From Agelas oroides (Eukaryota; Porifera; Demospongiae; Agelasida; Agelasidae): DNA of 64,000 bases. A program made the position numbers and the translations under genes. The notes beneath the pieces are model-generated. The model saw only the letters and a list, made by a program, of their open reading frames with translations, was not told the origin of the DNA and searched no databases. Positions 4,488 through 58,600 of the stretch are shown piece by piece (positions within the stretch are counted from its first letter, which is position 1; each line of letters starts with the position of its first letter). The DNA lies in contig OX422205.1 of NCBI GenBank assembly GCA_949130485.1, positions 2,772,415 through 2,836,414 of the forward strand, written 5' to 3'.

Positions 4488-4662
4488 AGGCTGTGGTGAC
4501 TTTATGGTTAGCTTTGAGTGGCGTCTCGTGAAGCCTTCAAACCAGGCCCTGCCTGCACTTCCTCACGGAATGGATGGAAGCGTTTGCTCTTTTCAACAAT
4601 AGTATAGGCCATGCCCATTACTCCTTCTCTGCTAATTCCATAGCCCATTTCACTCATCTGTA

Positions 4663-6603: not shown

Positions 6604-7022
6604 TAGTCTCACAAGCTAGACCCACTTCCGCTAAAAGGGAAGGGTCTGGTGAACTGCATACACAAGCCGTGTCCCGCCGCACTGTACAGTGCGGTACAAT
6701 CACATTGCAGTATTTTGTCACATGACGCATTACATGACTGTTTGAGTAGCAATAGCAATCTTGAAAATGGTGAAAGAGAGCTAGGGCATATTTTCCGCTA
6801 CTGCAGAAGCTGTAAAAACACTTTGACTATACTTATCAGGGAGCGTGCTTACTTCGACTACACTTCGACGTGCTTACTCCGCAACAGGTAAATTCAAGAG
6901 TGCATTATTTGATATCTGGTTACGTCATCCAGCTAATTGCATTCCAGTGGGACATGGCTTGTATACGCAGTTCACCAGACCCTTCCCTTCTTTTGCGGAA
7001 GTGGGTTGGGCCTGCAAGACTA
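6604..7022. mobile_element. 419-bp MITE with exact 9-bp TSD
   Basis: The flanking 9-mer cattatatt is present at 6595-6603 and 7023-7031. Inverted ends start tagtctcacaagctagaccc on the left and tagtcttgcaggcccaaccc on the right, and similarity continues for about 65 bp (acccacttccgc, gggaagggtctggtgaactg). It sits inside the 5454-8848 element. An 80-bp relative is at 40,155-40,234. Confidence 0.88.
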
Positions 7023-7555
7023 CATTATATTACTGATTAAAAATCTGGAGTAAGCATTTGGCTTGTGTCAGCAGACACTTTTTGGTGAAAGGGTGGGGTT
7101 TAACTAAAGAGTAAGCAGGTACCAATTTTAAGTTCTCTTTCAAAAGCTAGCAATCAGCTTCTCCTCTGAGTGCATTCCGCAAACACACTAACCCTCTGAG
7201 AAGCCACCTGACCCTTCCCTGTGCATGACACTGAACACAATCTGTGCTGTGGTTGGTTTGGTCTGGCTTACGTGATCATCAGCCAAGGCATAAAGTTAAT
7301 GACACCCACCATGGAGTTACTCCAGCTCCTTGGGGAGAAAATTGCAATCCCAACAAACTCTGCATTGTTGATAAACAATTTGATAGCTTCCATGTAGCTT
7401 CTTCTGATCTAAACTAAGGCCATACTTCATCCAAACATCATCCCAAACAGCGATAAATGGAAAAATCACTTCAATTCTGATGATCTGTTGTCATCAAAGT
7501 TTGCATGGCCAAGATGCTTGAGCACTTCAAGCTGGGGTGTCATCAAGAGTATGTA

Positions 7556-7620
7556 GCCTGCCAGTGGCACACATGTAACTTATATAAATCATTGTACATA
7601 CATGTGTGCCACTGGCAGGC
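7556..7620. repeat. perfect 22-bp inverted repeat, 21-nt loop
   Basis: The arms 7556-7577 and 7599-7620 are perfect complements (gcctgccagtggcacacatg plus two bases). The transcript of either strand would fold into a strong hairpin. It may be a compact foldback element or a hairpin RNA precursor; neither can be decided from sequence. Confidence 0.85.
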
Positions 7621-7793
7621 ACAGATCCCATATTTCTACCTCAACTATCAGACTATCACTTTGCAGGTGCATTTTAGACTAGCTTTACATAAATTTCGCC
7701 CTCACCTTGCTTTTCTGTGTTTTGGACACACCAACTTTCCCTCTTACATACACTCGAGTAATGCATTACGTAATCACAGCGCACGTGCCTGAC

Positions 7794-8378
7794 CTCAGAA
7801 TCGGTGAACAAAGTGAAACCCGGCTCTCCCCTCGCCCCGACGAAAAATAAAAACGGAGGGGGAGAGCCTGGTACCAATTCACACGTGATATCGCGGCACG
7901 ATGACGTCACAGCAATAATTACAAAAGCCGTGACGCAATTATGCAGTCACGTGATTGGCTGACTCGAACAGCTACACTATTTCTACTGAAACAAGTGAGC
8001 TGTGACTGCGTCAGTGAGACCTTGGCACGACTCAAACAGCAGCGACGGCGGAGAAGTACCCAGTACGTAGGTAAGACTTTGCCTATTTACTGTTACCATG
8101 TTCCGCTTTGAAAAAAATTGCAACGAGGCTATGAAGAAAGACTTTAGTTGGCTAGCGCTACACTCTGGCGTACAAAATAAACTCACAACCACATTTTAAA
8201 GCTCCAACATAGCTACACAACAAAAAACGAGTTGTAGTAACAAACTCCTAACTTGAGAGTACCTCGCGGCTACTTCGCGGTCTTCACGTGAGTGACGTTT
8301 CAGGTTATTTAATAGTTAGTGCAAAGTAGTCGTGCCACGATATCACGTGCGAATCGATACCAGGCTCTCCCCAGAGGA
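7794..8378. repeat. internal foldback built from TIR modules
   Basis: 7794-7875 is an inverted copy of the left terminal region of the 5454 element (aacaaagtgaaacccggctc matching gattcactttgttcactg). Next, gagcctggtaccaattcaca (7868 on) is inverted at 8366 downward as gataccaggctctcc with acgtgatatcg shared. The 7.87-8.37 kb segment is thus a foldback embedded in the larger element, showing repeated rearrangement of the same ends. Confidence 0.65.
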
Positions 8379-9111
8379 GGTCTGACACTTGTGATGTCAT
8401 ATACATCAACACGTGATCCTGATTGTCAAGTTAATTACTAACCTCCTGCATTCCATTGCTTCAAGAGCGATTTCTGGGAATCAGAAGCTTCTAGCGTGCT
8501 GGGTTCACTCGGGTTGGGGGGTATTTTCAACCATACTGAAGCTGTCTATTAGGTCGAGATCAATCACTGCCGCTCATCTAGCTCTCAACAGCCACATAAA
8601 TGCCGTTTGGAGGTCACAAAGGTGTGCAATGTTACTTCTGACTGGCAAGACACTTTCAGCATCATGAAAACCCCCCTAAACCCATCATGATCTTTGTCAC
8701 ACAGCGTTTCCGATTGTTGTATTGATGGTTTTTAGTCCTTGGAATGTTCATTAATGCATCGCGCACGTGACTGTGTCGGACCTCCTCTGGGCTCTCCCCT
8801 CCGTTTTTATTTTTCGTCAGGGCGACGGGAGAGCCTGGAACGAGGCTAGATGCTGACAGCAATGCATGCAATCAGTCTTGTGAGTACTCGGAACGTCCAT
8901 GATAATATTGGCCATGGTAAGATTGATGAGCAGGTGCTTCTTGAAGAGGCATCAAAGAGCAATCATTGGGTGCTGTTGCTGTTGTGGCATAAGTCTGGTC
9001 TGATGGGTCATCATGCCTGCTAGTGTGGAAAACATTTGTTTCTGAAATTCCAGCATATCTTTCCTTTGTTCACTTTCTCTTTCTGCCATCTTCTCCTCTA
9101 GTTCATTGCCG

Positions 9112-10671: not shown

Positions 10672-13600
10672 GTTGCGTTAATAGTTTGAAAGCATACCAT
10701 TGTAGTAGCATGTGTAAGTGTGTAGTGAAACAACTGTAACTTTTAGTTGTGCACCATATCACTTGGCATTACCGACCCCAAATGCCCTCTGGTTTCTTCT
10801 ACAGCCAATGTAGTGAGAGTATGGGTGAGATATACATACTTAGTCTGCAGATCCTGGCTAACCTCTGCCGGGCAAATGTTTCAGTGCAGGCCTTCATGAA
10901 AGGACTGGTAAGACTGATGAATCTTTACTGCATGTACGTATATATACAGTAGCAAGATCATGTGTACTTCTAGATTAATCAATGCACTGTGTCAGCTTGT
11001 GTAAGTATTTCAGAGGTCCTAGCCATCACACAGGAGTGGCTGGTACTAGTAAATCAAGAAATGAAACAAAAACGGCGGAACAAAATAGAAGCCACACCCA
11101 CAACAATTGCAGATTTGTGCATCTCAGGGCATATGTGACCTCGGTAGTAGCTACATGAGCTATCTTGAACTCACTTTGTATCTTCCAGCACTGTTAGTCA
11201 AGTATGACTATATACTGGTAGATTCTATAACTTTATATTGTTGTGACAGTTCAAGCATAGATACTATTCACTTCCGTGGATGTGAAACGTTTCCGCCCAC
11301 TATGAGAATGTGTGATACAATCATTGCAGCGGTAGTAAAACGGAGAGTAAACGGATTTCCGTGTCATTTTACCTCAGTTGAGCGGTGTGGCAGCAGCTGG
11401 AACAGAGAATAGAATGGACAGGGTACATACTCTACAGCTAGAAGGTTACAGGAAGTTTAATTTCATGCTGATTCGCGCTCATGCTGCTCCGTGTGGAGAA
11501 TGCAGCTACTATGTAGACGCGACACGGTAATATCATACGCGAATCATGCGAGTTTTCACCCTGTTTTTTAACTTGTACACGACACTTTCAATGGAACACT
11601 TACACTTTCTCCCAGTGTACGTTCTAGTACAGTACACAGTTGTAACAGTCACTTGGTCTATAGGCAGCTACGTCCGGAGATAATCTGACACAAAGTAAGT
11701 ATCCTGAAATTTCGATCTTGCCTGATTCTTGGGAAAACAAAAAGTGTCACAGCATTATCAGTACTTTCTCCCAGTAGACGGACCTACATTACATTTGTAT
11801 CAAGCCAACATCTGGTTCGAAGCAAAACATCTGCAGAGATAATCAGTCACACAAAGATGTAGTACAGTGCTCCAACGGATGCGAGGGTGAATACGTTGAG
11901 TTAGAAGCGAACTGTAGACTTCCTGTAACCTTGAATCTGTAGAGTATGTACTTAGTGATCCTCTGAAATAGTATGTAGACCGCTATCACAGCGCTCCCGT
12001 GTGCCAAGACTGAAAGAGTGTCGCGCATACACGACAATTTTGGCCGCTCTGCCACGGTCTGGCGCTGCAGTGACTGTATCATTAAATCTCCGTAAACTAT
12101 CCGTAAACGCATGCCGTTTCACATCCACTACGGTATGTATTATCTATGGTTCAAGGGGTTCTCATTTGTTTTGATGACAAACTTCAGACTATGGTTCATG
12201 TCCTTCTCCTCCTTACCATACTCAAAATAGTCGCATAAGGAAGGAGTTAGCTTTGCTAGCTCATGAACCCTGTTGTTGTGAACTATTGTACTTAGCATTC
12301 TGGTATTGTCAGACAACTCCCGTACCTAGGCATTCTAATTAAAGCGCCATTGAAAAGCATGACCAGGCAGCAAGTGCATTGCATTTACCAAATTCTGCTA
12401 CCCATAGCCATAGGTAGCTAACTGCTTGCTGTATAGAAAATGGAAACAAGGGCTCAGAGGGTGCAACAACTGTGAGCATGCAGCAATTACTAGAACTAGT
12501 AGCTACACTTACCGAGTACATAAGAAAGTAGCTGCCACAGCAAGAAAGACACAGAGACCAACATTAGTCTTACCTCACTAATGATGCCAATCCTGGGAGA
12601 GAAGCACGTCCCAGAGGAAAATACACACACTGTGGTGCAACTGTGTGGAATTTGTATAATTTTGTAGGTGTCACTTCTGTAGCATTTTGCCATTTCGTTT
12701 TTTTTTTCTTGATTTACCGCAGCCCCAGGAGAGACTGTGAGTATAGTGCTTTTCATGCGCTCCTCAGCTATTTCTGTAATTGCTATGTCCTGGCTAACAT
12801 TATGACATGTAGCTATTGTGACTTGCTATACCTATGGGTTGTTCCTTTCATTTGCAGCCATCTGTTGTTAATGTCCAGAGACAACTGGTGTCCAACCTCT
12901 CAAAGAACAACCTTACTGCTATGATTCTGTCACTTCAAATCCTTGCAAGCCTCTATCTTGGTGAAGAGTGGGGTGAAAGGGTAGGTAAATGTTATTTTCA
13001 AGCTCAATGGACTGGTTATTTTGAGTTTGGATAGATTTTAGACACTATATTTTACTTCATAATGAAATCTAATTATATGATATCTACATAACCTCGTTCC
13101 CAGGCGCTCGAAAAATCGGATTTTTCAAGCGCCTGGGAACGACGCTAAATATCTACACTGATAATATGAGATAACTTTTGTGTTAGTTTGTGTATCATGA
13201 GACCAAGTTTCATCTGTGTCATGATATATCAACTTGTCAAGTATGTTTTGTCAACTGCCTTTTTTGTTTGTTTGTTTGTTTGTTTGTATTTACCTTTACC
13301 CAGATTTTTGGTACTAACAACGTTGAACAGACCTTCCAACTAGGCTTCAGTGTCCTATGCTCAAGTGATGGTGACCCCTCAACTAGAAAGCATGCTGCTG
13401 ACTTGCTCATGGATATTTCATCAAATCATAGAATTCAACAAGCTCTCAGACAGTAAGTATGTACAAGACCTAGGTGCTATTATTGCATGTGTACCAACAG
13501 TACACACCATCAAGTATACCATAGTTTCGCGAAGGAGCACCCATGGACGGACCACCTTACAAGTCTGCTCTTTCGAATGTTTCCGCATTTAACCACGAAA

Positions 13601-19600: not shown

Positions 19601-22600
19601 CCCCAGGCCATGGATCTGCAGCAGTCGCCTATTCACAGATGCTCCATCAAAAGTGGTAGCAACAACCTCAAATCCACATCGCTGTATCCTCTTGATCGAC
19701 TCCCACAAAGGTTGGAAGAGAAGATCACCTGCTTAATGGATACAAGAACTAATACAAATAAAACCATTTGTTATGCAGTCAAATACAGTTAAATTTCACC
19801 GCTAGTTGCTCATGAATTAATGTACCTGAGACATCTCGGCAAGGAAGCTGTACAATCTACATACTCCTATACAGAGTGGGTAGATTGTGTAACTGTTGCT
19901 CCTTCTCAATGGGTTGCAGATAGCGATAGTTTGCATGACTGTTCGCAGATGCAATCTCACTTGAATTTTCACGGTGTAGCATCTTTCGCAGTGTGTCGTG
20001 TTATTTCACACACCTCAGACATCGTTCGCGGCGCATGTGTAGTTCGCTTGAAGTGTGGCAAATGGTTGGGTTAGGTAGTGTCACTGTGTTTATGTATGCT
20101 GTGACTTGGGTACCTGTATGTTTTTTATGCAAATTTACAATTTAATAAATTTAATTGATTTCCAACTATATGCTTATATACCTGTTGCATCCATGAAGAT
20201 TTGGCGAGACAAATGCATGTCAGCATTCCCTACACAGGTATGGCAACCATCCAGCATCTCAAGTACATCCACCACATCTGACACTGTGGAGAACACCAAA
20301 GACACACCCTCCAAAGACACACCCTCCAAAGCGCTGGTAGTAGCAGGGCTCAATGCTTTGTCATGCTATGTCATCTTCCATGTCAAATCAGTATTCACTG
20401 TCAGGCTCAACATCACCTCTAGCTTCGTAGCGTTTGCAAACTTGCATAGGACCAGGCTGTTTGCTGTTTGCAGGCTGTTTGCTGACCCTGCCTGTTCAAT
20501 CCATCTTACAAAGGTGTAGTAAGTTGACAACACTACAAAACAGTAGACTACCCTGACAGTCAGAATAAAAAACAGTAAACGAAATCAAGCATAACATCGT
20601 ACACTATACATGTACTACATACCAGCTGGTATTACATCTCTTGTAGTCAGATGCTGTCTCCATGGGCCAAAAAATGTTGCAGGGCCTTCACAATTTGTAA
20701 TAATTGGCACCACACGTGTATCTCTCAAGAGACATTCAGCCTGCAGTGATATCCTTTGTAGTGGAATTGACACTTTCAGCAGCTTTCTTTGATTGTGCCT
20801 CTTCATTCTTTCTATGTGAAAACTTGAACTTCCTTTTTCCCATTCTGTGAAAATGTGAAAAAATAAATTTTTTTAATCATGTATGTTTAAGTTGCTATTG
20901 TTCAATGGCTATTAACAACTAGTAACTATTGACTGGTTTAGGGTGCTATACATTTCATATGCACATGATTTGACACGCCTTCATCATTACAGTCAAGTTA
21001 ATTTGTACTGAGGTTGTTAGGGTATGCCTTATTTCAATGATTAGTAGGTGTGACTAAAAGCCACCACTTCAGTAAATTTGTGTTTCCTAAGTAGTGAAAT
21101 GGATACCATGCAATAAAACAAGCCTTGTACTTCACAGTAAACCAGTTTTAAACAGAGGTGGATTCAGCTGGAATAATCTTCAGTCCCACAACTAACACAC
21201 ATCACAAATCAATAATTTCTCATGCTGTTATGTGATGTTAAGTATTCATGCCCTAAAACTATTTCTGCGCAACAACCCAGTCTTCACACATCCCAGCCTG
21301 CTATAACACAGTGTTTCTACTACTGTCACAGGACAGCTATAGTCCCACAAAACCACGTTACAGCATGACAGTCTTATACGCTCCTCCCACACACACACTT
21401 TATTCCATTTTAACTCCATTTCTACCAACTAAGTCTGGCAAGGTTTGCGCTACATTTCTATGCCATTAACAGGTCTCTAACTTACCTCCTTCCCCCATGA
21501 AAAGTTGCTCTTCTAACTCTCGTCGTCAAATTTGCATCCATTTACCGTGACACAAAGTGTCTGCTCGAGGGCAGGCCCTTAACTATTACAACATACGGGC
21601 GCACGTGATCCGTTTCCAATCCCGGTTACATAGTCTAGATTACCTATGCTAGAACCGATTAGTTTTGGACAACCTGCAATTATTTGCACAGAGCAGCCAT
21701 TGGGACATTTTTTGATATGCGTTGGTCACTCGTAGCACAAGCCATTCCTGAGAACGAGCTGTTTCTTTCAAAATGTCAATCTTCCGGAATCACTTCTAGA
21801 ACCACAGATTCAGTTGGCAGTCGATCGATCGCTGCCAACCCCCGCCTACTAACGTGAAGTACTTGGAACTAACGAATCTGTGAAAGGTTTTGCTAATTCC
21901 TGGATATGTTTAATTTGCCTAAAGTTTGATTTTTATCCCATGTCGACAGCTTGCTTACAATCGGTAGCGACAGCTTGCTTACAATCGGTAGCGACAGTTA
22001 GGGTGCTTCTCCATGTAACCAGTCACTACATTATATCATTGTGATGTAACCCATCAGTACATCAGTACATTACATCACTATCTGCAATTGTAGCAACTGC
22101 TGTCACTACTGTCACTACTGTCACAGTGTCACAGTAGTCACTACTGTCCCCACTGTCACAGTAGTCACTACTGTCACAGTGTCACAGTAGTCACTACTGT
22201 CACCACTGTCACGGTAGTCACTACTGTCACCACTGTCACGGTAGTCACTACTGTCACCACTGTCACGGTAGTCACTACTGTCACCACTGTCACGGTAGTC
22301 ACTACTGTCACCACTGTCACGGTAGTCACTACTGTCACCACTGTCACCACTGTCACGGTAGTCACCACTGTCACCACTGTCACAGTGTCACAGTAGTCAC
22401 TACTGTCACCACTGTCACGGTAGTCACTACTGTCACCACTGTCACGGTAGTCACTACTGTCACCACTGTCACGGTAGTCACTACTGTCACCACTGTCACA
22501 GTAGTCACTACTGTCACCACTGTCACAGTAGTCACTATTGTCACCACTGTCACAGTAGTCACTACTGTCACCACTGTCACGGTAGTCACTACTGTCACCA

Positions 22601-25600
22601 CAAACTACAGTAACTATCACATGTTAACACAGTCACTAGTGTTTCAGTCACTGTTGTCACAGACAGACAATGATCAATTGATGTAGCATTGCAAATCACT
22701 CAAGTCAATATTAAAAACTCAGGAACTCAAGATGCAAACCACTCAAGATGCAAACCACTCAAGTTATTATTTTAAAAACTCAGGAACTCAAGACTCTATG
22801 TAAGTTTCGCATCGTCTATGGCTAATTTACAATGGCAGTGGATTATTTGGATCAATGTCTTTGCTCCATGATGGTAGGGATGTGTTCTGTCATGTTCTGC
22901 GCTTACTTGGTTGGATTGGAAATTGCTTTTTCTTCCTATTTTCTGTTCGGCTCTTCTTCTTTCGACTTGTGCTTTGGTTTGTCCTCAGCCTTGCCATTCA
23001 TGCTGTCAATCTCTTTCTCCATCTCACATGTCTGTTTTTCGTCCATTTTCCTCTTAGTTCTTCCTCCATTTGCTTTAGTTCCATATAATGTAGTGACCGG
23101 TTACATGGAGAAACAGCCAAAAGTTAGCTGCTACGTTTAAAAAGCCGACTCAGCATATTCACTTCCGTTTGCGCGGTAACGGTGGCAGGACCTCCACAGT
23201 GGTGAAAACTGCTTTTTTGTGGGGTGCCTATTTTTGTATGGGTGCTTATAAACGCGATGTGGTTGCTGTAATCATAATGGGTGCCTATATTCATAGGGTG
23301 CTTATTTAGTGTGGGTGCCTATTATCCTGATTTTACGGTATGCTTGTTGGTTATACTCTGAGCAAAAGTGTTCATATCGGGAGTTTCTAGAGCGGTATGT
23401 CTTCTGGGTGGACAGAGCTAATCCGGCTGAAAACAATTTCTGAACAATTGGGTTCATGTCTGAGATGTCCAATCTGGTTGATTGTTGACTAGCAGATCGA
23501 CTAGAGGAACTGGGAGGAGGGCCGGGAATGGGCAGGCATCTGGGACCTTAAGAAAGAACGAAGCAAGGTTGTTACGTGACACTGCATCTGCGATCTCGTT
23601 TTGAGGACCTGGCAGATACTGGCAATGTAACCTAATGCGAAATCTTGCTGTGATGAGAAAAAAAATAAACAGCGTAGGATGTGCATTACCTGGGGTTCTT
23701 GACTATACCCCAAGTTAACCACTGCTACAACAGCTTGGTTATCACAGAGACCTTGATTGTGCACTCTTGCCATAAAGGGCTCCAAACTGCTGTTGCAAAA
23801 ACTATTGGAAGCAGCTCTTTTTGTGTGATCGCTTCTTGTTGGTATGCTTCCCCCTATTTGTACTGCAGCCAAAATGTGCCCCACACTGCACCACACCCCC
23901 AACTCCCTGAGGCATCTGTAGAGATTACATAATCAGGAGATTTTAATATTACCTCCCTCAAAAGCGAAACATCATTCCATGCTACCAGGAAGGTGTCCCA
24001 CCAAGCAAGATCAGAGCAGAACGACTGATTTAACCTAACATGATGATGCATCTTGTTTTGCAACAGCCAATTGCTCAAACATCTGTCGAAGGAATGTCCT
24101 GCCTGGACATACAACCTTTGATGCATGCTGCAATTTGCCAATCAAGGAGCACGATTCTTGCTTCTCACATGAGTGTCTTCCTACCCAGGAGTGAACTAGT
24201 GCCCGCAGCTCTGACAACCGTTTGCTTGGGGAAGCCTCATCTCCACTGCTATTGTATCTAGTTCAATACCTAGAAAGGTAAGACGGGAGCTGGGGCCTTC
24301 TAGCTTTTCTTGGGCTATAGGAATGCCATGACATTCGAAGGCTGCTGGGTTACCAATACCTAGTAAGAAAATCGTCCAGGTAATGGAAAACTGAGTTCAC
24401 TCCTTCCTGCCGAACTACCCATTCAGTAGCATCTGCCAGTGTGTTAAATAGTTTTAGGGCAGACCGGAGGCCAAATGGCAGGACTGTGTCAATGAAGCTT
24501 TCCCTCCCGTCTCATACCTAGTAACCGGCGGTCCTTGGGGTGAACTGGGACAATTCTAAAGGCACTCTTAATGTCTACTTTAGCCATTAGAGCACCCCTG
24601 CCCTTCTCTATGATGGTTTGTGTGGCATCATCTACTGAAATATACCACCAATTCTCCTGGATGCCATCCTTTACACTCCCTCCTTTTGGCGCCGAAAGGT
24701 TTACAATTAGATGCAACTTTCCTGTGGAGCCCTTGCGAAAGACACCAAAGGGGGGGCTCACATGTACTTCCGGTAATGATTTTGCATTTAGTGGGCCAAT
24801 AACCCTCCCTTTTGCAATCTCTTCCTCCAGGTACCGGTATTTACTGACTGCTTCTGGGTGAGCTTGAGCTGAGGCCATGTTACCCATGGATGATCGGCAT
24901 TGATGACGATAGTTGAAGCCGATTCTAAAGCCATTCCTTACACCTTCCACAATAAATGTTGCCAACCTTTGATCTGAGTGTGCTGCCAAGCTTTTTTTCC
25001 ATGCTTGTTCCACCAGAGGGGTGGTAATTGTCCTCATGCCTGGGGGCAGGTGGGTTGGATTGCCTGAGCGACATGCATCCAGTGCTAGTAGATCTGCCAT
25101 GTACTCACATTGCCCTGGAAGGAGTGGGGGAGGGGCTCATAGTTGCTATCTTATACCTTACTCTCCCCTAATCATGCATTACTTCCCCCTTTCCCTATTT
25201 AACCAAGGAGTGATTAGAATTATCAGGTGAACATGTCCAAAGATATGTGCAATCAGGATGCAGTAGACAATCACAGGATTTTGAGTACTTCACTCTTGGC
25301 TAAATTTGCAGAGTTACTTCTGCAGCTGCAACTAATATGGGTGGCCCCTGATTGCTTGCCCTGACCAGCCTCCACTAGGATGCACTGGGGGTTGGGCTTC
25401 ATTGAGCTGCCCTGGCTTTCTGCAGCATTCAATGGCCGGCTTGTCCCCTCCACAGATCATGAAATTTGCTACGCCGAAACCAGCGACGCTTCTTGTTGAA
25501 TAAGTTGACAGATTGAGGCTGGTCCATGGGGTTGGCGGCTCTAGTGTTGCCTGTCCCCGTATTGGTGTGACCTGACATAGCCAAGACAACAGATTCAATT

Positions 25601-28600
25601 GCCTTGACTCTCATTCCCACATCTGGGTCGGAGTCTGCCAGACTCACACACTCCTTAGTGGTGCTGCTCTCAGTGACTTAATCAGGTGTTTGGGAGGCCT
25701 AAGCTGGACACATGCTTATCGTTAGATCATACTTAATCCATAAGCTAGGCTAGCGGCACCTTGCTGGGATTGCCAACATATTTTTGTTGCTTTAAGCTGG
25801 GCAAGCTACTAGCGTGATTAATTATTGGGTAATTTGTACAATTATCAGCTTCCTTTGCAATTTGTGACGGCTGTGTCTTGGTAAAGTTATAACGGGACCA
25901 TCCACTGGTCCCTAGGAACCTACCATTTGAAACCCTGAGTCCTCCCTGCGCCTCCACCTACCGGTGTACTAACGCAGGTGAGGCTCGTCATCCCGATGCT
26001 TGGGAGAATGATTCCCAAATAATAATAGTCCCCAGTTTGTGCCCTAGGTACTATGCATGCACAAGTTTACAAGCGGTACCTTTGCTCACCTGTACTAGTA
26101 TTACTGGCCTGCGTCGGAGTGCTGGCTGCGGCCCCTGGCGGAGGTGTCACCGGTGCACCAGGAGGGGGTTGGACCCGAGCGGTTATCAGTCTCTCGATCC
26201 ACGCTTGTTGCTTCAGGGTGGCGGACCGCCGGTCAAGGGGTTGGCCTCACTCACCTCAGCGTCTCCAACACACCAGTCATCATAACTGATACTCTGGTCG
26301 CGTCGGTTGCTGGCTTACGGGAGTCACGTTGCAGATGCTGTAACTGAAACTCAAGTTGTAGTCGTTGTTGAAACGTTGCTGATGCAAAGACTAGATCCCC
26401 TACCGTGGGTTTTTCTTGTTATTTATAGGCCCACTGCACATGATGTCATTAATAACCCGGTAGCCATCTTGGAGGACAGGTGGAGCTAGTTGGAGCAAGG
26501 TGGAGCTGGAGCAAGGTGGAGCTGGAGTAGTCCGAGTATGAGTACGTTCGCATAATGGTGAATTTCTGCGCAGTAGTTGGATGCAGTAATAGGTCAGACA
26601 GGGAGAAAGAGATAAACTTTTATCGCTTACCAGCCGTGATTTTCCATCAAGGTGAAAAAACCTATGAACTAAGTCAAATCTCTGGCTCACAAGAATTCAC
26701 AGGGAAGACCTCAGACCCGAGAAGTATCCTTGTACTCGTGTCTGCTCTTTACACTTCATATTAGGTAATCTAACTATAGTCAAGTACACTAGCTAGCTAC
26801 CTACTAGCAGGCATGAAAACTAAAAGGCTAATCAGTATTTTACCTATCATTCCTGGCTTTATCTAGGGAAGCCCTGTGCCTTGTATGATGAAAATAACCC
26901 CGATTGGGCACCGTCGAAACGTCTTGGGGGAGCACCAGAAAAGTGTACGACAGTAGCTGAAGAGAGGCGTACAAGGGCGGTGTTAAGAAAGGAAAAAAAA
27001 AGAGAGTTTTATATCGGCAGGATGGGGAGGTAGAGTTGGTGACAAGCATCTCACAGAAAACTCTGGACTATTAAACAACTTGCTTCCAGGTGACACAGTA
27101 CTTGCTGATTGTAGATTTGATATTAAGGATTCTGTGGGACACTACTGTGCAACGGTAACTCTACCAGCATTTACAAAAGGGAAGAAGTAACTTAGTGGAA
27201 TTGTAGTGGAGCAAACACGACGCATAGCAAATATAAGAATTCATCTTGAACGGGTTATTGGCAATCTTAGACAAAAATATTCTTTTCTTAGTAATACCCA
27301 GCCTATTGACTACTTACTTAGCAAACCAGGAGAAAGTGTCACTACATTAGATAAGGTTGTTACTGTATGTTGTTCACTGACAAAGCTATGTAATTCAGTC
27401 GTTCCTTTGGACTGAGAGAATATTTATTTTGTACATAATCTTATACAATTGTCATACAATTATTTACCCTTTTTGAACTTCTCATGTTTGCGACAGTCTG
27501 GACAGTACCATGATTTCGATCTAGGTACAGATTTCAATCGTAAACACTCAAGATGGAACCACTGGTAAGGACAGCCTGGATTATCACATCCCACCATTTG
27601 TCCATGTTCACCCTCTTGGCAGTAGCAGTACTTTAGGCAAGTGCCATGCGATGATGTCGATGCTGTTTCAAAACTACTATGGGGAGGTAGGTCACTAGGA
27701 GTAGATAGTGATGACATAATTGTTCTGGAGGGCGGGAAAACAGCTCTGGCAAGATCCCAATTTCACTCTTTGCCTTTCTAACATTCTCTTCCCAGAAGCT
27801 GTTGTGTGGCTTTATTTCTTCAATGTGGATACTTTCTTTGGTGTAAACAACAAAATCGCAGTGGTTGGATCAAGTACAGCAGAAAAGCTGCGTTTGAACC
27901 TGTATAATAATAACGTTATTATGAAATTGCTAAAATCGGACATATACTAAATATGCAGAGCAAAACTTACTTGATAGTAATATGCATGTTGCCTTTTCAG
28001 CTGATTTCTTCCATCTGGTAGCTTTTCAACACAGAAGTCTCTATCCTCAGTTGCAGCATCAACAGTATCACTTTACGACAGAAGGGGCACTGCGTAAATA
28101 TTACAAGAACAGTGTCAATTTTGTGTAAACCAAAAGAAAGGATGAATACTAACCTTTACTTCACAGATTCTTTGCCCACAGCATGAACATTCTACAGTAC
28201 CATCTGGGGAAGCACCAATGAATGGGTACTCAACACTAACAAACAGTCCACACTTTGACACCCTGAGATTTTTGTGCTGAGATTGACTAGTGTATCTTTC
28301 CAGTGCCACCTTTTCATGTTGACATCCCCAGCGAGTAGCAGATGTGCTAAAACGGCACGCTTCTGGGTAACAAATAACCATAATTAGGCTTACAGAAGGA
28401 CTTGCTGGATCAGTGTGACAGGCACTTTTAAACTTTGAAGCTGTGATCCTTCCACATCTCATTCTAAACCATAATCTAGAATGATTCCTAGTACCTGCCT
28501 CGGCAGCACGACCCTGTTTTGCTGTGATGTTGATTTCAGTGTTCCCTGCAATTTCCAGCAGTTCATGGTAACCTAAGCTAAGATATTCAGTCCTATAGAG

Positions 28601-31600
28601 GTCTGAGGGTACCATGGGCAACTCAGGGGCAAGTGATAATGGTACGTAGGCATCACAGTAAGGGGAGACAACAGCAAGTACTGCTGCTGGCTTTGCATCT
28701 GAACATGAAGCCAAACTGTCAAAAAATTGTGAGAGTTCTGTGTTCGATGGTGGAGGAATCGATCTCTTATGTAGCTGCAGGCGCTGAAATACTAACTTCA
28801 GAATTCTTTCTCTTCTTTCCAACAAACTCACTGGAGAGTATGGTACTGACTTCATAGCAGGAGGCATTACCCAGTAGGCACTCTTCTGCGTAACAGTCAG
28901 TGATTCTTTGCTCTCAACTCCAACACCAATGACCCAAAGCAGTGTTGCAACATGGGAACAAGCCTCACCCAGTCCTGCCATGCAATCACAGTGCACAGCA
29001 AGGATTCTTCCATCATCCATAGCTATGATCCATGGAGTGAGTGGTTTTTCACTCAATCTCTGAGAGTGATTTACCTGTACGTAAAAGAATGCCAAGGTGC
29101 TGACTTTAGGCTGCCAACAACAGTTGAAATCAGTAGCTACAGTCAGCAATTACCTTTCCAATAACAATTCTCTTGTTATCAACAGCCTTCACAAGTACTT
29201 CTCTCACCCATCCTCGCACAAAGTTTTGGTAGCAGTCCAAACTCTTGTAGTTGAGCAGGTCTTCTTTAGTGTAGGGGCTTGGACACAGAAACAGGTACAT
29301 GCAGACATGGACGTGCGTAATAGCAGGCCATAAGTCAATGCAAGAGTGCATAAGAACGGGCGGCTAGAGTAAGAGTGTGTAACTCCAATAGAAGCCCGTA
29401 GTCCGGGCAAAATTATTGAACCGTACTAAAAATAGAACATCCGGTCACGTGTGTGCTTAGCAACAATGCTTAATGGCTTATGTCAATGCAGCGTGCACAG
29501 TGCGTGTTACTATTTTTAGTACTGGCGGTAAATTCCGCCCGGTTTCGAATTTTACGTAGTTACACGCTCTTACTCTAGCCGCCCGTTCTTATGCGCTCTT
29601 GGTCAACGTTATCTTGCTATTCGATCCTCGGGATTTCATGGGGATCAGTACCATTCACCAGATCCAGCTTATCCACATATCTTTAAAATTCTTCGAGTCC
29701 ACATCTGCGATTGTAGTATAATATGCCGGAATGAGTCCACGCTGCATCGCTAGCGCTGTGAATCCTGTTGAACCGCATGCATACGCATATGTTTGTCCTC
29801 CAACATGGCGGATAGCAACAGTTACTAAGGAAATTAGACCGGAAGATGACGTCATTGCAACAGGTCTATAGTAACCGCTAGCTCAGGCCCCCTCTTGTCT
29901 CAGTCTTCTCTGCACTTATTGCTCAAAAACTGCTCTGCTGACAGAACACGGCTGTGTGTGCCGTCGATTGCACAACTGCGTGCATTGGCACACTGACAGT
30001 CCGCCTACATTCAGTCAAGTCCTCTCAGCCTTCTCTCTACCTTCTACATCATAATAAATTATTAAGCTGGGCAGAGCCTCCGGGTCCTGTGACAGTGATT
30101 AGTCCGTGCTTTCCTCAATCCAGGGTCCTGCCACAAGGTGTTGCATGGGCTTGTGCTATTCTAATAACTCATTATATTATTTTAGCCCCACCCTTTACAT
30201 TAACCTTGGTAGGCCTATAGCCTGTTGTGAGGTGGGAAAATGAGAAGATGGCAAAGCAATCACTTGTTGAAGTCTGCAAAGAAGTCAGTACCTGATAGTG
30301 GGCCAAGGGCGCATCGAGCGATGTGCCCTTGCTTGGCTTAATGTTTAGCCATAGACTCTTCCTGTATGCATCGCTTCTTTCTCACTCTATCATGTTCCCT
30401 TTCCTTTGCCCTGCTCTCTTGTGACACAGTTGTCCTTTGCTTCCTCTTTTGTGTTCTAGCACAGTAACGTAGAGACTGCTCAGGTTCCGTCGTGGTCTGC
30501 TCATGCAGCGCTCGCATTTGTAATTAAGTGTCAACGCCACCATATGCACGTCATGTCTATACACACGTGTGACTAGACTGCCCATGCTAATGGCCAACTT
30601 GCATGATATGGCCAACTGTCAGGTATTCTCGAGATCAAGTGTCCCTACATGTACAGATATGATGACATTTATGCAGTAGCATGTAGCCAGGAGTCATTTT
30701 TCTGCCATACGTATGAGTCCGGATACAACCATCTCATTGAAAAGGGACCATAATCAAGTACTACAACTTTACGTTATCTCTGCTAACTGGTGTGACTTTT
30801 ATGTATACACCACTAAAGGTATAGCTATAGAGTCAATTTATCCGGACATGGAGTGGAAAGTAAGGAATCTTCCTAAGCAATACTTTTATGATAACATATT
30901 GCTGCCTGAAATCTTGCTCCCAAGAATGAAACCAGGTTTTGTCTTGTAAATACATGATTGTATTATTTTGGTAATAAACCATCAGTGTCAGTCAGCTTAT
31001 TGTACAAGTGTAGAGTAGAAGTTAGTCAATACAGCACATACAAAAAGGCTTGGTCTGCAAAACAAGCTAAAGATACAGGAATAGGCTTATCAAAAAGTAA
31101 TAGTTCTTTATACGTTCAATTGCCCATTCTGAGTGAAGCAATTTTTCTTGTCTCTACCATGTCTTTCTCATCTAGCTGGTCTCGGCCACGCATAACGGGG
31201 GGTATGTTCAATTCTACACCTAAGGGTTGGAACACACCTTCAACATCAAAACCTCGATCTGCCATAATGCTGTCCCCTCTCTAGTAGTTCCACTAGTCCT
31301 GACTCCAGCATGTGTTCTTTGTCGTCCAGAGTACAAGGAGGAAACAAAGCTAATGGCACCTGATGGTGTAATGCCAATCAAGCCTTTAAAAAGTATTAGT
31401 GTTCTTATAGTGTGAAAAGATCACTTGTTGTTCAATGGAGTCAGATGGCTGTACTACTTTCACCTCTATTGCATCCAGTGTTACTCTTGTGGAAGGGTAC
31501 TTTCTTCGAAAACACTGAGGCATGCACTGCTGAATTTGAGCCTTAGATGGCCAGAGTGGAATGCTTTTAAACCTATGTAATAAATGTCCTGGAATTGTAT

Positions 31601-40600: not shown

Positions 40601-43600
40601 CTACTTGGATAGATGCATACCTGGCAATAGTTTATGCCAAACAGAATTAGGAATAGAGCTTGTATGTACAAGGTGAGAGAGTGTTTTCTGAGACAACTCC
40701 TGCAAAGGAGGAGAGAAATATCCTACCCAGCCTCTACCAAGGATGGTATGTTTGGTTATTTGCCCCAAGACCTAGCCTTCTTTATTGGCCAGCAGCAGCC
40801 TCTGCCACCATAGCTAGTCCACAGTAACAGCTTCTTGACATCCTGAGGAAGTTTCATGAGTGACTGATTCTGCTGTGACTGTAAAAACCTAAAATGACTG
40901 GAGCTATCTAAATGTTGGTGTCCAAATCAAAGTCCAAAGATAAAGTTTCTGCACGGAAGCATTGTGGTTGATGTTGGAGCTTGCCCGAGCCCCATACATT
41001 ATTTTTGAGTAGGGTCTTCAGTACAGTGCTGCATATTGGAGTTAACTCATTGAAGCAGAAACCCTTTGCACCCTTGGACAGCTAGTACAACAGTAGGTCA
41101 ATTGCTTTTAGTGATAAGTCACCAGTGTCAGACCATTGCTTTGGAAGAGAGTGATGCATGACTTTCTTTGTGTATGTAAGTAGGGTCTCTCTTTCTTTGA
41201 TTGACCTTCCAAGCAGTCAGATTGAAACCTGGCCAACAGGAACAGTAGCACCAACCTTTAAAAGATTGGAGGGCAGGTAAATCTAGTAGTTACAGGTATG
41301 GGGGCAAACAACAGCTGAAAAGCCAGTACTTGCTATGAACATGAGAACCAGCATGAATGAGTGTTAATTAGGGTCAAAAGTTGCCTGAAAGATTCTGTGA
41401 AGGTATATAGGTTTCCACTGTGGCTGAGATGACTGGTTAGTGCTAACTCAGAATGCACTGTGTATTGGGATAAAAGCTGTACTGTGACATTTACTACCTA
41501 CGTACATGACGATTGTCAAGCAAACTTCTAATGTAGTTTCTCTAAGATTTCTCAACACATTTTGCCAGGGCATATGGAACTAGAAATCTGAGAGTGAGGA
41601 GGAAATACTATATATCAAAAGGAGGCAATATAATTTTATACCCGATTTTTAGTTAATCAATTTCCCTAGTTAGTCTACATTATTTTGTATATTCTAATTC
41701 AAACAGTAATTCTGTTTTTGTTAGCTACAGGTGCAAGTGTTGTCCAGATTTACCATCACTATTCCTAAGTCCTGTCAGGACATCCCAAAGTCCCCTTGGG
41801 ACTATGGGACGTCCTCAGGATTCCCGTGTCCCACCAGAGACATCACAGTCCCTCGGGACTCCCGTGTCCCACCACAGACATCACAGTCCCACTGTCCTCC
41901 CCATCCCAAAGTCCCCTTGGGACTATGGGACGTTCTCGGGACTCCTGTGTCCCACCACAGACATCACAGTCCCACTGTCCTTCCCATCCCAAAGTCCCCT
42001 TGGGACTATGGGACATCCTCGGGACTCCTGTGTCCCACCAGAGACATCACAGTCCCACTGTCCTTCCCATCCCAAAGTCCCCTTGGGACTATGGGACGTT
42101 CTCGGGACTCCCGTGTCCCACCACAGACATCACAGTCCCACTGTCCTTCCCATCCCAAAGTCCCCTTGGGACTATGGGACGTTCTCGGGACTCCCGTGTC
42201 CCACCACAGACATCACAGTCCCACTGTCCTTCCCATCCCAAAGTCCCCTTTGGACTATGGGACGTCCTCGGGACTATGAAGAGCTTCATAGAGAAGTATG
42301 ACAGAAACCAACAACAACTTCAAACACTAGCTGCAATGGATGATCTACTTTCTGGTAATGTCAACAATCCAGCCTCTGTAACCGTATTTCCTCGATCAGA
42401 CGCTGCCCTTGAATAGACGCCACCCTAGAATAGTAGCTGCAAAATTGTAAGCACTGGGTGATATATTAAAGCGCCGCCTTTAAATAGTAGCTGGTGGCCA
42501 GCATACAGAGCTCATGAACACGGGCAAGAACATTGGTCACCTAGCGCTAGGAGTGTTCATATTTATGACTGGTTTCCACATGTGCTATTTCCAGCGTTTA
42601 TTAGTTGTTACATTGTGGCTAGCTGCAGAGAAATTGAGTGTCTACCATAGATAATAGAACACGTGCCTACGTGTATATATGTGTTCTATGGTCTACCCAA
42701 CGGTGAAATAGCTCCATAGCCCCATGCCTGGCTGTATCACCCCAGATTCACCCGTTCCTTACATACCTGAGCCAGCCATTACTGATGGTGCTAAATGACA
42801 AAACGACTAGAAAATGTAGAACATTGTGGGGGCGAGCCTGAGCAAGCAGCTACTATGGCTACATGCACATGAGTAGACTAAGCTTCACGTTGAAATGATG
42901 AGCTGAATTGCTAGCATTTATGAGTGCCGTTTATGCATGACCCTTACCTGAAGCGATCTCAACCCGGCGTGTACAATTTGTACGGTCTGTGAGCAGCCTG
43001 CCATTGATGGTCGGTCCGTAGCTGCTGTGACAAACAAGAAGTAAGGTACCGTGCACGCTTAAACTTGAGCTGTCTCTGCTACGGTTGCCAACGCTGCACT
43101 CTGAGTAGCCCAGCATTGCCTAGCCTCGTACCCAGGCCGGCCTGGGTACGAGGCTAAGCATTGCCCTTCACCTATTGACAATTTTCGGGAAATATTTAAA
43201 TGCGCATTAAACATTAAACGGTCTCCATGTTAACTAATACAGGTGTGCAGTAGTAATGTTATGTCTAGCTCACTATAGGTGCTATGTAAACAATATAAAT
43301 GCTAAATAGGGTATGAAGGCAGTAATGTTAGCAGTAACAGTTGGGGTTCAATCCTCAACATTGTGCAGCGCTTTTTTTCTGTCTCTTTTTTTTCACCTCC
43401 TGTATCACTGTTTATGGACTCACTTTCCTTGCAGACAACAGTAGATACGTGGCAGCTCTTTTATATTTTATAAGCCTGTGCTGAACGTTATGTAGTCAAC
43501 TCATGTCTGGCTCCTCCTTTGAACCCTGAGGATGAAGCGGTGAGTCAAAAGGTAAACTAGCACTGAACTCTCAGACCACTGTGAGCAACCTGGGGTGTGG

Positions 43601-46600
43601 TTTAGACTCAAAAATGACAACAAAAATAATAACCGGAGCGTCTGATTGAAAAAATTATGACCCCATACTCCTCCGCCTAGAAGTACCCCCTCATTTATAC
43701 TTGTAGAAATGAAATTGCTTGCTGGCTTTAGTTATAGGTGTTGGTATATAAGTAGACAGTGAGCTATGGCATGCCTGATTATACAATTTCACAGGCACCG
43801 GCATGCCAATATCTTGTATATTGGCACTCTGTATAGGCAAATTGTGCCATATCATGATATGACATGATTTACCATATATGGCACAACTGCCAAGCGGGCA
43901 ATTTGTTTTGTGTGTATATAAAGAGGACATCAACACATCATCAATCGTGCAGCCAGCACCACCGATTGAGGGGAATGAAGGCAGTTACGAGGTTAGGAGG
44001 GGCAGCTCCAGCATGAGCAACTCTCTAAAGGGTGGCTAGCTTTGTTCCAAGACACAAGGGCGGCAAAGACCCATTTGCTAGCTCAATGATTTGAGTGTGC
44101 AAGCTGAATAGCTACATATTTAGTATGCCTAGCGACTTTCTCTACACTGCCTCAGGTAAGGACTGTGCATGTCATGATCGGTGCATCATCATAAAAACGC
44201 TTCTACTAACTCTACAACATGCAGATCCAACGTATTCGCCATCTTGATCGATACTGCTGCAATAGTAGACAGCCAATTACTGCACTTTGATGTCACTGTT
44301 ACCATGGGTTGCTATGGGTTGTCATGCAACAAATTAATTATTACACACGAGGGCTGTCACAGCTCTGATGTCATACAGTGCCAATATCTGGTATATGGCG
44401 TGTGCTGCCTTGTAATAACTAATAAGTTCTACTTGTTGAAACACCCTGTGTTGAATATACTGCAGATTGAAAATTGTCTGAGAGATGGACATTATAATTT
44501 CAGAGATGGGCTCAGATAGAAGTGGGTCAAAGTAATGGCTTCTCAGCTAGCCTCTGTACTTCAGTTGTCATCAGGGCAAAAGGAATGAACTCAGGCAGAA
44601 GTGGGTCAAAGACCACTGTTGTTTTTTTGCCCATAGAGCTAAGAGTAAAACAAACAAACCAGACGGCCACAACTGGAACTTGAACCACAGACCTCTCACT
44701 TCCGGATGAGTGTGCTACCATTACACCACTGTAGCAGCTGAATCCCTTCTGGAGTAGGAATGCTCTAAGCTTGAGCATGGCATGATAAATATACCGCAGA
44801 TTGAAAATTGTCTGAGAGATGGACATTATAATTTCAGAGATGGACTCAGACAAAAACCAAATGTCTAGAAACAACCCAGACAAAGGGTAAGTTGCTAGCC
44901 TCACCTTGTTTGGCCTATCTGTGCTAATGAGTGATGATATTACATACCATTGAGAGCTCACTAATCAGAAAAAATGGCTGCTGATGATCATGATGAGAAA
45001 ATCACCACTTCCACTTCTTTGGGGAATTAGAGTCATGCTTCACTTGAGATGCAGGAATGTTAAGACATTGGGCCATTAGGTGTCCCAGAAACTCCCAGTA
45101 GGATGTGGTATAGACAGGACACTCCCAAGGGTGGGAGTCCTTGGGATGTCCTGGGGACTCCTGGGTGGACTGTGGGACAGACAGGAGACTGGGACAACTG
45201 CCAAAGGTGGGAGTCCCACTGGGATGTCCCAGGGACTCCCAGTGAGACTGTAGGACAGACAGGACACTGGGACAACTTCAAAGATGTGTGAGTCCTTAGG
45301 ATGTCCTGGGGACTGCCGGTTGGACTGTGGGACAGACAGGACACTAGGCCAACTCCCAAAACGTGGGAGTCCGTAGGATGTCCCAGGGACTCCCTCACCA
45401 TTCAGTGGGACTTGGGATAGTCCTATAGGGAATGGGAATGCTGTTGGCGTCTCTGGACATGAGCTACAGGTGCATACCAGCATGTGCTATCCCTCACATT
45501 TCATAGTCATCAAATCAAACAGCTGCACTGGTATGCACATTCAAGTTATTTGTGAACAAATGCATACATCAATGCACAACAAAAACACCCAATATTGCAT
45601 GGGTGTGCATGGGTGTAGCTAGCTAACATTGAGACAGAGGAGGAAGCTGCCTCCTCCTAAAGCAGTCCCTGCATACTGCAAGATACTTAAGTAGCATTGA
45701 TATAAGATGTTTACTATATGATATTTTTTCCCCTCACTCTCTAGTGAAACTGGTGTCAGTGTGCTAATGATGGTCTTTGCATTGGGCTTGGAGGATAAGA
45801 GGCACTCACAACCATTTTCAGTATGTACCAAAGCTGTTCCAACTTGTTTATGTTTTCTGGCGTTGTGTAAACATTGTTGTTGGTGGTGGTGGTGGTGGTA
45901 TTGCACAGCATATAGTCATCAATGCATCAATACTTACCCACAGTAGTATAGGGATATACTAAGTCCTAGCAGGAATTTAGGCAAGAATTTTAAAATTTTC
46001 AAATATACAGCGGCATTTAAAGTAGTAAATTGTTGGCTTATAGTTATATAATGGTACCTGATTTTATGTCATGTCAACATGAAGATTGTCTGAGAGGGGT
46101 TGTTCATCCCTAAGAATTTTTAGTAGAGATACACAGGCATTTACAGTTTACAGATATCTGTGGATAAGATTTTCATATTCAAGCAGAATGCAGCATTGTT
46201 GCATCTTCACAATATTTATCTAGGCTAGGCAGTTTTATTGATATAACCTACATAGAAGTGACCCTACATTCAGGACTATACAGTTGACAAAGCTACGTTC
46301 TTGCTCAGACTGTCTACTACCCCTGGACTGCTGCATAACTATGAGAGTGGGGTGTGCAGATTTTTACTTATGCAACTTTCTGGGTTTTTACCCCGCATGC
46401 ATATGCTGCAAAGTGGGGTTATCATAGAATTTCATACACCCTACTCCTTTGTACACCCCCCCTTTTCTTGGATAAATGTACTCTTATTGATTTATGCACA
46501 ATAAAGAGCTAGGGTGGGGACTGTTCTTGTTCCTTATGTAGTTTCATGAAGCCTCATGAGACTATCGTCCAGCAAATGCTGCATAGCATGCCATGAAAGT

Positions 46601-55600: not shown

Positions 55601-58600
55601 AAACCGGGCTTAAGGTCCGCGGATTGAGCTATTCTGGGATGAAAAAGGACGAACTTGTAGCGAAGTAAGTTAGAACGTAACTTGGTTACTGTAGCGGCCC
55701 AGTAGGCGGAGAGATTTGAACCCTCCCTTCCAGTTAATAAAAATTATTAATACACCACATGAAAACATAATACTGGTTTATTTATAGGGTTGAAAGAGCA
55801 ATCAGGTGCGGGCTTGATTCACCTGTAGAAGAGAGTGATGAAGAAACTGATGAGACAGCACCCGATGGTTATCAAGCAACAATAGTGTCAGATCAAGGGT
55901 GGATAGATGCTAATGTAGCCGAACTGCCTCCACCACCCTCAAACACATTCACCAATATTTCATCACTGGTAGACTGCACAAAGAGCGTGTCACCGCAACA
56001 AAGCCATTCGAGAGGGGATACAGGCTGTTTGACTCAAAGAAGGTCCAATGCCCATCAGTTCATGATGTGACCAGCACCTCAGTATACTGCATCATCCGTG
56101 CAACTGTGTTACCCTCACAGAAAGCTGGAGCATACAAAACAGCTATTGCTGTTAACAAAATGAATGGGCAAATTATTCACGGAAGCTGTACCTGTGTTGC
56201 AGGTAGTTCAGCCTGCAATCACACTGCTGCATTAATGTTTGCAGTAGACGATATCAAGAGAGCACATGCTACCCATGGAAACAGTGGTGGGCCAAGTTCG
56301 ACCTCGCTGCCCAGAAAGTGGGGAGTTCCAGCAGAATCTAAAAAAGAACCAATACCAGTGAAAATGCTGGAAGTGACCAAGCCAAAGTATAATCACACGG
56401 GTAGAGGGGTAAAATTCTTTAAACTATGCTGATATATGTGTATCGATAACTGCTCTTGAGGGCCATGTGATGAGGGGTCAAAGTTGCTGGTCTAAGAACT
56501 TGATCCAGGTTACACAGATACAAGATACAGTAGCAATGCCAATATTAAATCGATGCGCTTGTTCCAATAATCCTAATTGTAACCTTATTAATACCAGGAA
56601 TAGTTTATCAATGGGTTGCAATGCTCGTGCTCTGGGTTTAAATGTTTGGGTAGCGGTACTCTTAACATCACTGCGACATAGACGTAGATGACATAATAGA
56701 GGTTCAAGTTATCTATATAGGCACATAAACACAGGGTACGATGGAAGGCCAGTGTAAAACTGAATATCTGAATCGCTTCCTTCAAACCGCTTTAGGCAGA
56801 AACGCGACAACAATGTTCGTACTTCATCAAGTCGCAACACATCGGCCTGTAACTGAGCAATTTGCTCCTCATGCCTTTCAATTTCTCCCCTTGCTACTTC
56901 TGCTGGTGACAGAGGCTCCTCATGCTTTTGTTTCTTGCAAGGTATGGGGTTACGGATGGATGGGGGTTGTCGATGCTTAACTGACACACTCCATGCAAAA
57001 ATGGTTGGTACTGGGCAATCAGCAGTTCTTCCACTCCCCTCAAAATGCAGGCTGCAAATCCTGGTGTTCTCGCTCACACTAATTGGCTTCTTAATACTAA
57101 CTAACCACTTGTATCTCAGAACAGGGTCTTGAGGCAGGAGATGAAATTTTACCCCATGAAACTCTTCCCTATCACTCCTGCTAGAACATCCAGGTATGCT
57201 GCAAATCTGATACCAAGGCATGGGATGGAGCTTAAGTGTTCAATTCAGTGCTCTATAATCTCGAGATCTTGTTCCAAGTTACATCCACGGTACAAAGTTG
57301 AAACACATCAAACAGATTTAGCAAACTAACTCCACAAAACTAACACTCAGTCTAACAAATCGCGCAATTTCATTCTCAGTACCCTATCATAAAAATATAA
57401 ACTCAACTACATAAACTAAGCAACTTACCTAGCAACAGTTTCCGCGGGTTTTGTCCTCGTCTGCAGCCGCTGGGCTCCAGAGAACTGACGCTTTCGCGCT
57501 CTGTTCGCTTCACCGCCATCGCTTCGTATTCCAATTAATGCCTACTATTTCCCCCCAGACGTCATAATTACGTAACAATGGATAAAGGTCTATTGCACAG
57601 CACATTTTTGGAATCCATATAATGCATTGCAACCCCAAGATAGCACAGTGTATGCACATGCTACAGCGCGCATGCAATCAACAGCTATTGACTGACAGAT
57701 AGCACAAGAACAGCCAGTGAAAATGGATGGTAATAACGCGAGAGACTGCATACAAGCTAGTTGTACAACAGTGAGGGACATTTCAGCAGCTCATGATTGC
57801 GCAAGAAAATAAGTATCAAGAGTCAGAGAAAGCTCTTCAATGACTGCTCCCTGGGAGATGAATGAAGAAAGCAAACAAGCCAAGCAGTCAGGGTGTAGGA
57901 AGCAGTTTGACACAGACTGTTTACACAGTGACAATCCTGAATTTTTAGATTCAGTAAACAAATTGTGCAAACTTGAGACTACGCAATTTGTCTACTCAAT
58001 CTCGGGATTGTGCAAAAACCTATGCAATCTCAAGGTTGCTGTGTATTACCATAGTGTCCCGCTAATACGCCCCCTTCGAAAATTATTGACCTCGCGTTGA
58101 ACTGGCAGCTCTTCTCCGATGTAGGGAGACCACGCAGCTTTGTAAACATGATGTCCGCGAACAGTACTCTCGATCCTGAAAGTCGTCGCCATAGTTACTT
58201 GATAATGAAAGGCATTGATTTCATACTTATAGCTAGCTGTTCGCACCCGCGTACATAGCACTTGCGTAAAATCTGTTGGGGGGGGGGGGGGGGGGGGGGG
58301 GGGGGCTTATAGTCGAGACTAATTGCATCCTCGAATATAAGCCCCCCCCCCCCCCCCCCCCCCCCCTCCCCACTTTAGGCGGGATGTAGTGTACAAAATG
58401 GGGGGGCGTATTAACGGGACACTACGGTATAAGGATTCTAAACATGTGCTGCGAATTTTCAGGATTGCACAGATTACACAGCTAGAACATGTAATTATAA
58501 TTAGTGAAATACATACATGAGATATGGAATAGAAGTCAAACATACAGTGATAGCCCAAGGAGACCTCTGGCCTAGGGTTTGATAAATCACTGATGGAGCC

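Follow-up and report, generated by a model that had tools for sequence, protein, structure and literature searches.

The window, a 64,000-nt stretch of the Agelas oroides genome, contains a 36-bp sequence, TAGCCTCGTACCCAGGCCGGCCTGGGTACGAGGCTA, that is identical to its own reverse complement and has the same 9 bp, AGCATTGCC, on either side. The palindrome and its exact 9-bp target-site duplication (TSD) are as the first-pass annotation had described them. The annotation had also likened its ends to those of a 3.4-kb element in the same window, and this relationship holds: the longer element is flanked by its own exact 9-bp duplication, GATGCTGAC, its left end matches the 18-nt arm at 16 of 18 letters, and its right arm is one C short. 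This element has no open frame longer than 121 aa. In all, the 64-kb window has five matches to the arm at ≤3 mismatches, versus 0.03 expected. This excess, together with the genome-wide arm counts and the exact 36-mer copies described below, rules out a chance palindrome.

Table 1. Coordinates of features in the window
Feature	Position	Strand	Remarks
36-bp perfect palindrome, TAGCCTCGTACCCAGGCCGGCCTGGGTACGAGGCTA	43121-43156	.	Fused 18-nt ends of a terminal inverted repeat (TIR) element, TAGCCTCGTACCCAGGCC plus its reverse complement
Left TSD, AGCATTGCC	43112-43120	+	Read from the window
Right TSD, AGCATTGCC	43157-43165	+	Read from the window
3.4-kb related long element, T-variant ends (TAGCCTCGTTCC...)	5454-8848	.	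Exact 9-bp TSD GATGCTGAC at 5445-5453 and 8849-8857
59-bp tiny relative, arms TAACCTCGTTCCCAGGCG / TAGCGTCGTTCCCAGGCG	13089-13147	.	Flanks GATATCTACA / AATATCTACA, 9/10 equal
Host sequence around the insertion	43021-43248	.	Multi-copy; boundaries follow the query and do not delimit the repeat
DDE_1 ORF, mobile-element type	3924-4562	-	
YqaJ ORF, mobile-element type	28115-29149	-	
THAP ORF, mobile-element type	56709-57239	-	
Tandem-repeat stretch	41657-42416		Long open frames in three frames
Tandem-repeat stretch	22165-22686		Long open frame
tRNA match	44665-44735	-	34.3 bits

Joining the two flanks of the palindrome at one target copy gives a 183-base query, for which 40 of 642 candidate places were scored, absence of the element being judged from match spans and not from alignments. 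All 40 of these other places span the junction at query position 100/101 without the element. None of their spans is more than 31 bases longer than the query, versus 45 extra bases (36 + 9) at the window locus, and 13 split pieces locate about 30 surplus bases at query position 113/114. The host is thus a repeated sequence, and the insertion is private to the window locus among the places scored. With uninterrupted host copies and a 9-bp duplication, we conclude that a transposon with family ends inserted at this locus. The duplication shows only that something with such ends landed, not that the 36-mer is mobile.

Tiny relatives and their target-site duplications

The genome searched comprises 259,295,671 bases in 141 contigs, in which the exact 18-mer arm has 844 + 807 matches and its reversed control none. 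The exact 36-mer is present at three places, all three flanked by an exact 9-bp duplication of their own. Within 2 mismatches it is present at eight, with an exact 9-bp duplication at five, an 8/9 match at one and none at two. Searching for the exact 16-nt arm in inverted pairs gives 297 cases with an interior of 0-30 bases (32-62 bp in total) and 0 for the reversed control; there are 44 pairs with 0-8 bases between (32-40 bp) and 90 with 31-60 bases between (63-92 bp), all three counts referring to the exact 16-nt arm, with variants that have other arms outside them. We denote the family ends TAGCCTCGT. Beyond the focal pairs, a looser scan of 204,106 bases (2 mismatches, A or T variant) finds 16, among them the L037 locus for a second time; these are up to 548 bp long, and 7 of the 16 are ≤76 bp.

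A unique locus, which the first-pass annotation had named among the findings that would count against its proposal, is ruled out by the 18-mer, 36-mer and inverted-pair counts. The annotation had further expected a mobile unit to have many copies with different 9-mers, and flanking duplications do recur at other copies (all three exact 36-mers; five of the eight within 2 mismatches, all five different). However, such copies cannot separate a moving 36-mer from a collapsed longer element, because the duplication is inherited in the second case.

Reading the flanks of all 44 elements of 32-40 bp gave an exact 9-bp duplication at 32, an exact 8-bp duplication at 1, an 8/9 match at 6 and none at 5. 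For the 50 pairs at the head of the list of 297, which come from contig 1 and the beginning of contig 2, the duplication is exact over 9 bp in 24, over 8 bp in 4 and over 10 bp in 1, with 7-8 of 9 letters matching in 10 and fewer in 11. Pooling the 44 and 50 places, six of which are common to both, gives 88, and counting five related pairs once each leaves 83 independent loci of 32-62 bp. An exact duplication is found at 54 of these (48 at 9 bp, 5 at 8 bp and 1 at 10 bp), a duplication with 1-2 mismatches at 13, and none at 16. When flanks are cross-paired between loci, a 9/9 match occurs in 4 of 2450 combinations, traceable to the duplicated pairs L042/L043 and L065/L066; this control and the flank reading of the 44 elements rule out matching by chance. 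We likewise reject an origin of the copies by segmental duplication, which accounts for the five related pairs only; a check of all 88 places revealed no further pair. Flanks are equal at 89-90 of 90 letters in L042/L043, L056/L057, L065/L066 and L088/L089, and partly equal in L052/L053.

Long copies resemble the tiny ones in both respects. Among the first 100 listed places of the 18-mer are 20 inverted exact-18-mer pairs, of which 14 have an exact 9-bp duplication, 3 an 8/9 match, 2 a 7/9 match and 1 a 5/9 match. An exact duplication frames 4 of the 8 tiny pairs in this sample (32-56 bp) and 10 of the 12 long pairs (629-5115 bp), so tiny and long forms have their ends and duplication length in common. 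Across the 83-locus set both ends are kept and the interior is gone, with the target duplication retained at most loci, as in interrupted gap repair.

Interiors, junctions and inverted target copies

Despite arms that are identical by design of the search, the 83 independent loci carry 59 forms. In the 41-62 bp class there are 40 forms at 40 independent loci, and no form is repeated. A tiny mobile master would give many equal copies, and we therefore take this diversity of interiors as evidence against one. Many copies of one short form, as expected of a miniature inverted-repeat transposable element (MITE), are seen for the 40-mer GGCCACGTGGCC (12 exact loci, 11 with an exact 9-bp duplication) and the 32-mer with GGCC (11 exact, 10 independent; of the 11, 7 have an exact 9-bp and 1 an exact 8-bp duplication), yet not among these 40 loci. 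Other recurrent forms are an ACATGG variant and the exact 36-mer, at 3 loci each, and an asymmetric 36-mer at L013 and L015. Perfect palindromes make up 31 of the 83 remnants.

The 297 pairs of 32-62 bp outnumber the 90 of 63-92 bp, which indicates that the breakpoints sit near the element ends. Near-end breakpoints are what abortive gap repair after excision is expected to produce, according to the available text of PMC8277862, whose own animal data indicated internal breaks. The shortest case is an 18-bp remnant at L093 with 9 nt per end and an exact 9-bp duplication, AGAGACAGC, which lies inside a local tandem repeat and is a single case, 1 in 229,221 bases scanned.

At the junction of the 40-mer the two ends overlap by 8 bp, CCACGTGG, the longest overlap for end type A joined to itself in the range tried, and in the 32-mer they overlap by 4 bp, GGCC. 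Self-joining of type-B ends accounts for products of 46 bp (6-bp overlap) and 42 bp (4-bp overlap), both of which occur once in the sample, and for a 52-bp product (5-bp overlap) present only as a variant. Overlaps of ≥4 bp are found at 22 of 29 A-compatible loci versus 3.8% of possible junctions, and at 12 of 22 B-compatible loci versus 4.9%, ten 32-mers that fit both types being counted in both; this excess would be smaller if the twelve 40-mers were copies of one another, since counting by locus would then inflate it. The window 36-mer has a 2-bp overlap (CG) with type-B ends and 0 with type A. Thus the microhomology expected of interrupted gap repair is found in the set, though it amounts to no more than 0-2 bp in the window 36-mer.

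The junction catalogue comprises 81 loci, as it omits the pairs L042/L043 and L056/L057 wholly (the corrected locus total is 83), and the 24 long ends collected leave 41 of the 81 junctions unexplained. Many of these junctions are of a GGCT type with no long end among the 24, and some others would require filler or mutation.

Two elements contain inverted copies of their own target. In L037 (positions 1492-1603 of L005), the 94 bp between two copies of AGTCAGGCA comprise, in order, 26 nt of the left end, the target in inverted orientation together with 7 nt of right flank, and a fused-end unit of 52 bp, with the outer duplications intact. L075 is the mirror case, in which the 109 bp between two direct copies of GGTAGGTC comprise a 62-bp unit, the inverted 8-bp target and 39 nt of the right end. 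Most simply, the inverted local sequence in both would come from copying at the site, that is, fold-back template switching in place. L081 has a 10-bp inverted flank but no clear duplication, and the 8 bp at L110, which lie in simple sequence, were left out of the count. No inverted flank copy was seen in the remaining 82 of 86 loci, the window locus included; local sequence copied as in a template switch is clear in 2 of the 86, L037 and L075.

Origin of the tiny forms

We consider the 36-mer to be, probably though short of certainty, the healed remnant of a longer family TIR transposon, a scar of repair that was cut short after excision or breakage. The sequence comparisons suggest the following course. 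An element with family ends first inserted, creating a 9-bp duplication of its target, as the duplication and the uninterrupted host copies show. It would later have been excised by its transposase, or broken. Repair synthesis, to which L037 and L075 point, would then have copied a short stretch from each end, mostly about 16-31 nt among the loci read, and stopped. Being copies of inverted repeats, the short new strands could anneal, and the overlap statistics suggest that they did so at self-complementary GGCC, CCACGTGG, TTAA, TAATTA or, at the window locus, CG alone before being joined. The outcome would be a palindrome left between the two original target copies, and the diverse tiny forms would be independent products rather than copies of one tiny master.

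We prefer this collapse over a mobile 36-mer because the 41-62 bp forms are unrepeated, microhomology is in excess, and two elements contain locus-specific flank. The first-pass annotation had called the palindrome a transposon consisting only of its two ends; its origin in an insertion that duplicated 9 bp stands, as one of many such cases, whereas the mobility of the 36-mer itself is not supported.

Several observations run against the repair model. The low-overlap 36-mer recurs at three loci whose duplications differ, the asymmetric 36-mer at two, an identical 68-mer on contigs 1 and 2, and an identical 67-mer four times on contig 3; long pairs have an exact duplication more often than tiny ones in the 20-pair sample; the long-end catalogue accounts for only half of the junctions; and only the two clear fold-back cases are known in 86 loci. 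No pair of loci with a long form at one and a tiny form at the other was found, the duplicated loci all carrying tiny forms. By our estimate, a few hundred events on a few hundred possible junctions would produce some repeated forms anyway, and the recurrent low-overlap forms therefore do not decide the question.

Internal deletions of P elements likewise arise from interrupted gap repair, with short homologies at the joins. P-element donor-site footprints, which follow a 17-nt staggered cut, have TIR stubs between target duplications of 8 bp. The remnants described here similarly have a stub of each TIR framed by target copies, although the duplication is mostly 9 bp. In maize, MuDR deletion derivatives have been attributed to interrupted repair (PMC10288884, in the portion available, citing Hsia and Schnable, 1996). 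These also keep both ends and the duplication and lose the interior. Unlike them, our remnants retain about 9-31 nt per end, are often palindromic, and number 297 exact-arm cases in one genome.

Excision footprints offer a further comparison. Rice excision products are variable, with deletions and filler: 8 of 94 left just two target copies, and the remainder had flank deletions and/or filler (PMC4423477, available text). For maize Ds in Arabidopsis, the accessible part of PMC1978519 describes an inverted repeat beside the TIR and proposes excision-site repair as its origin, and this repeat resembles L037 and L075. In contrast to our remnants, none of the footprints in the available parts of PMC4423477 and PMC1978519 is made of both element ends. 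Our literature search, which reached few subscription journals, returned no description of an ends-only, smallest or palindromic MITE or footprint of this kind. The feature is real and abundant, most likely a set of repair scars rather than a 36-mer that moves by itself, and is new in degree and as a natural record of repair, not in kind.

An unlikely but not negligible reading is that the 32, 36 and 40 bp forms are true minimal transposons, whose two fused ends a transposase synapses on two molecules or on an extruded cruciform. Recurrence at different targets argues for it (12 exact 40-mers, 11 exact 32-mers, and 3 exact plus 2 asymmetric 36-mers), as do the single strands, which are predicted to fold almost completely into hairpins (the 36-mer at -18.9 kcal/mol). 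The human MITE Made1, which has a TA target and is one amplified form, provides a partial precedent. It consists of two 37-bp TIRs with 6 bp between them, 80 bp in total, and so also has almost nothing besides its TIRs (PMC1784062, as far as its available text goes). The tiny forms here vary from locus to locus, unlike the single 80-bp form of Made1. Moreover, the lack of any repeated form among the 40 loci of 41-62 bp argues against minimal transposons, the two commonest forms are the long-overlap ones, and the remnant with 9-nt ends is flanked by a duplication as well. A duplex of 32-40 bp is also expected to be too stiff to bring its own ends together. If palindromes of this size were mobile, they would set a new lower size limit for a transposase and be the smallest transposing DNA known to us.

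We think it improbable that the interior was instead lost during or just after integration, leaving protected stubs, each of about 16-31 nt, to be joined through microhomology. The near-end stub sizes, exact duplications and microhomology at the joins are compatible with such ends-only insertion, but by itself it leaves the inverted target copies in L037 and L075 unexplained, and the 9-nt stubs of the 18-mer are short for a protected end. Least probable of all is the shortening of resident inverted repeats as hairpins, by replication slippage or hairpin cutting and without transposase: the inverted ends of 12 long copies do match over 25-70 bp (≤2 mismatches), and perfect palindromes account for 31 of the 83 remnants, but these long copies, at 629-5115 bp, have long interiors that we consider unfavourable for slippage, which also predicts no inverted flank copies.

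If the repair reading is true, one genome would hold several hundred natural end-joining products, mostly framed by duplications where read, and their statistics would give access to the local repair pathway with no need for a laboratory model. The same reading cautions that TIRs, TSDs and many copies are no proof that a short unit is mobile.

Family membership and larger relatives

Mutator-like elements (MULEs) have target duplications of about 8-11 bp, usually 9, and the 48 loci with exactly 9 bp among the 83 agree with this. The genome has at least 119 MULE matches, from 150 of 194 candidates scored. One of these, L122 (G000:C2:11974500-11980500), encodes a MULE transposase in a 474-aa open frame, with SWIM-, CXXC- and OTU-like frames downstream as judged by eye. 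We rejected it as a partner of the tiny forms, as its 6-kb context contains no inverted family arms and only two weak minus-type matches at ≤4 mismatches. The family may be MULE-related on its 9-bp duplication, but the sole MULE copy read in context is without these ends.

Pfam matches in six open frames of long copies were limited to DEAD-box helicase pieces in two, both in type-A copies: L025 1522-1965 (minus strand; 25.5 bits, cut-off 26) and L034 691-939 (plus strand; 29.8 bits). The helicase piece was perhaps captured, and its likeness to RecQ is our own reading. Phage records queried with 156 bases gave no match.

Some larger relatives also recur. An identical 68-mer is present on contigs 1 and 2 (C1:1019071 and C2:5618380). 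Contig 3 has asymmetric 67-mers, four identical and one near-identical (G000:C3:14086013, 14281881, 15590537, 15815344 and 16046772), which could reflect either segmental duplication or local hopping. At G000:C4:11091564-11091792, three family members of 70-71 bp are separated from their neighbours by 9 bases, with a period of 79-80, and look as if they had been tandemly amplified through the target duplication. Finally, a 65-bp type-A form at G000:C4:11005550-11005614 has part of its right end twice, as read by eye, and resembles the outcome of two template switches.
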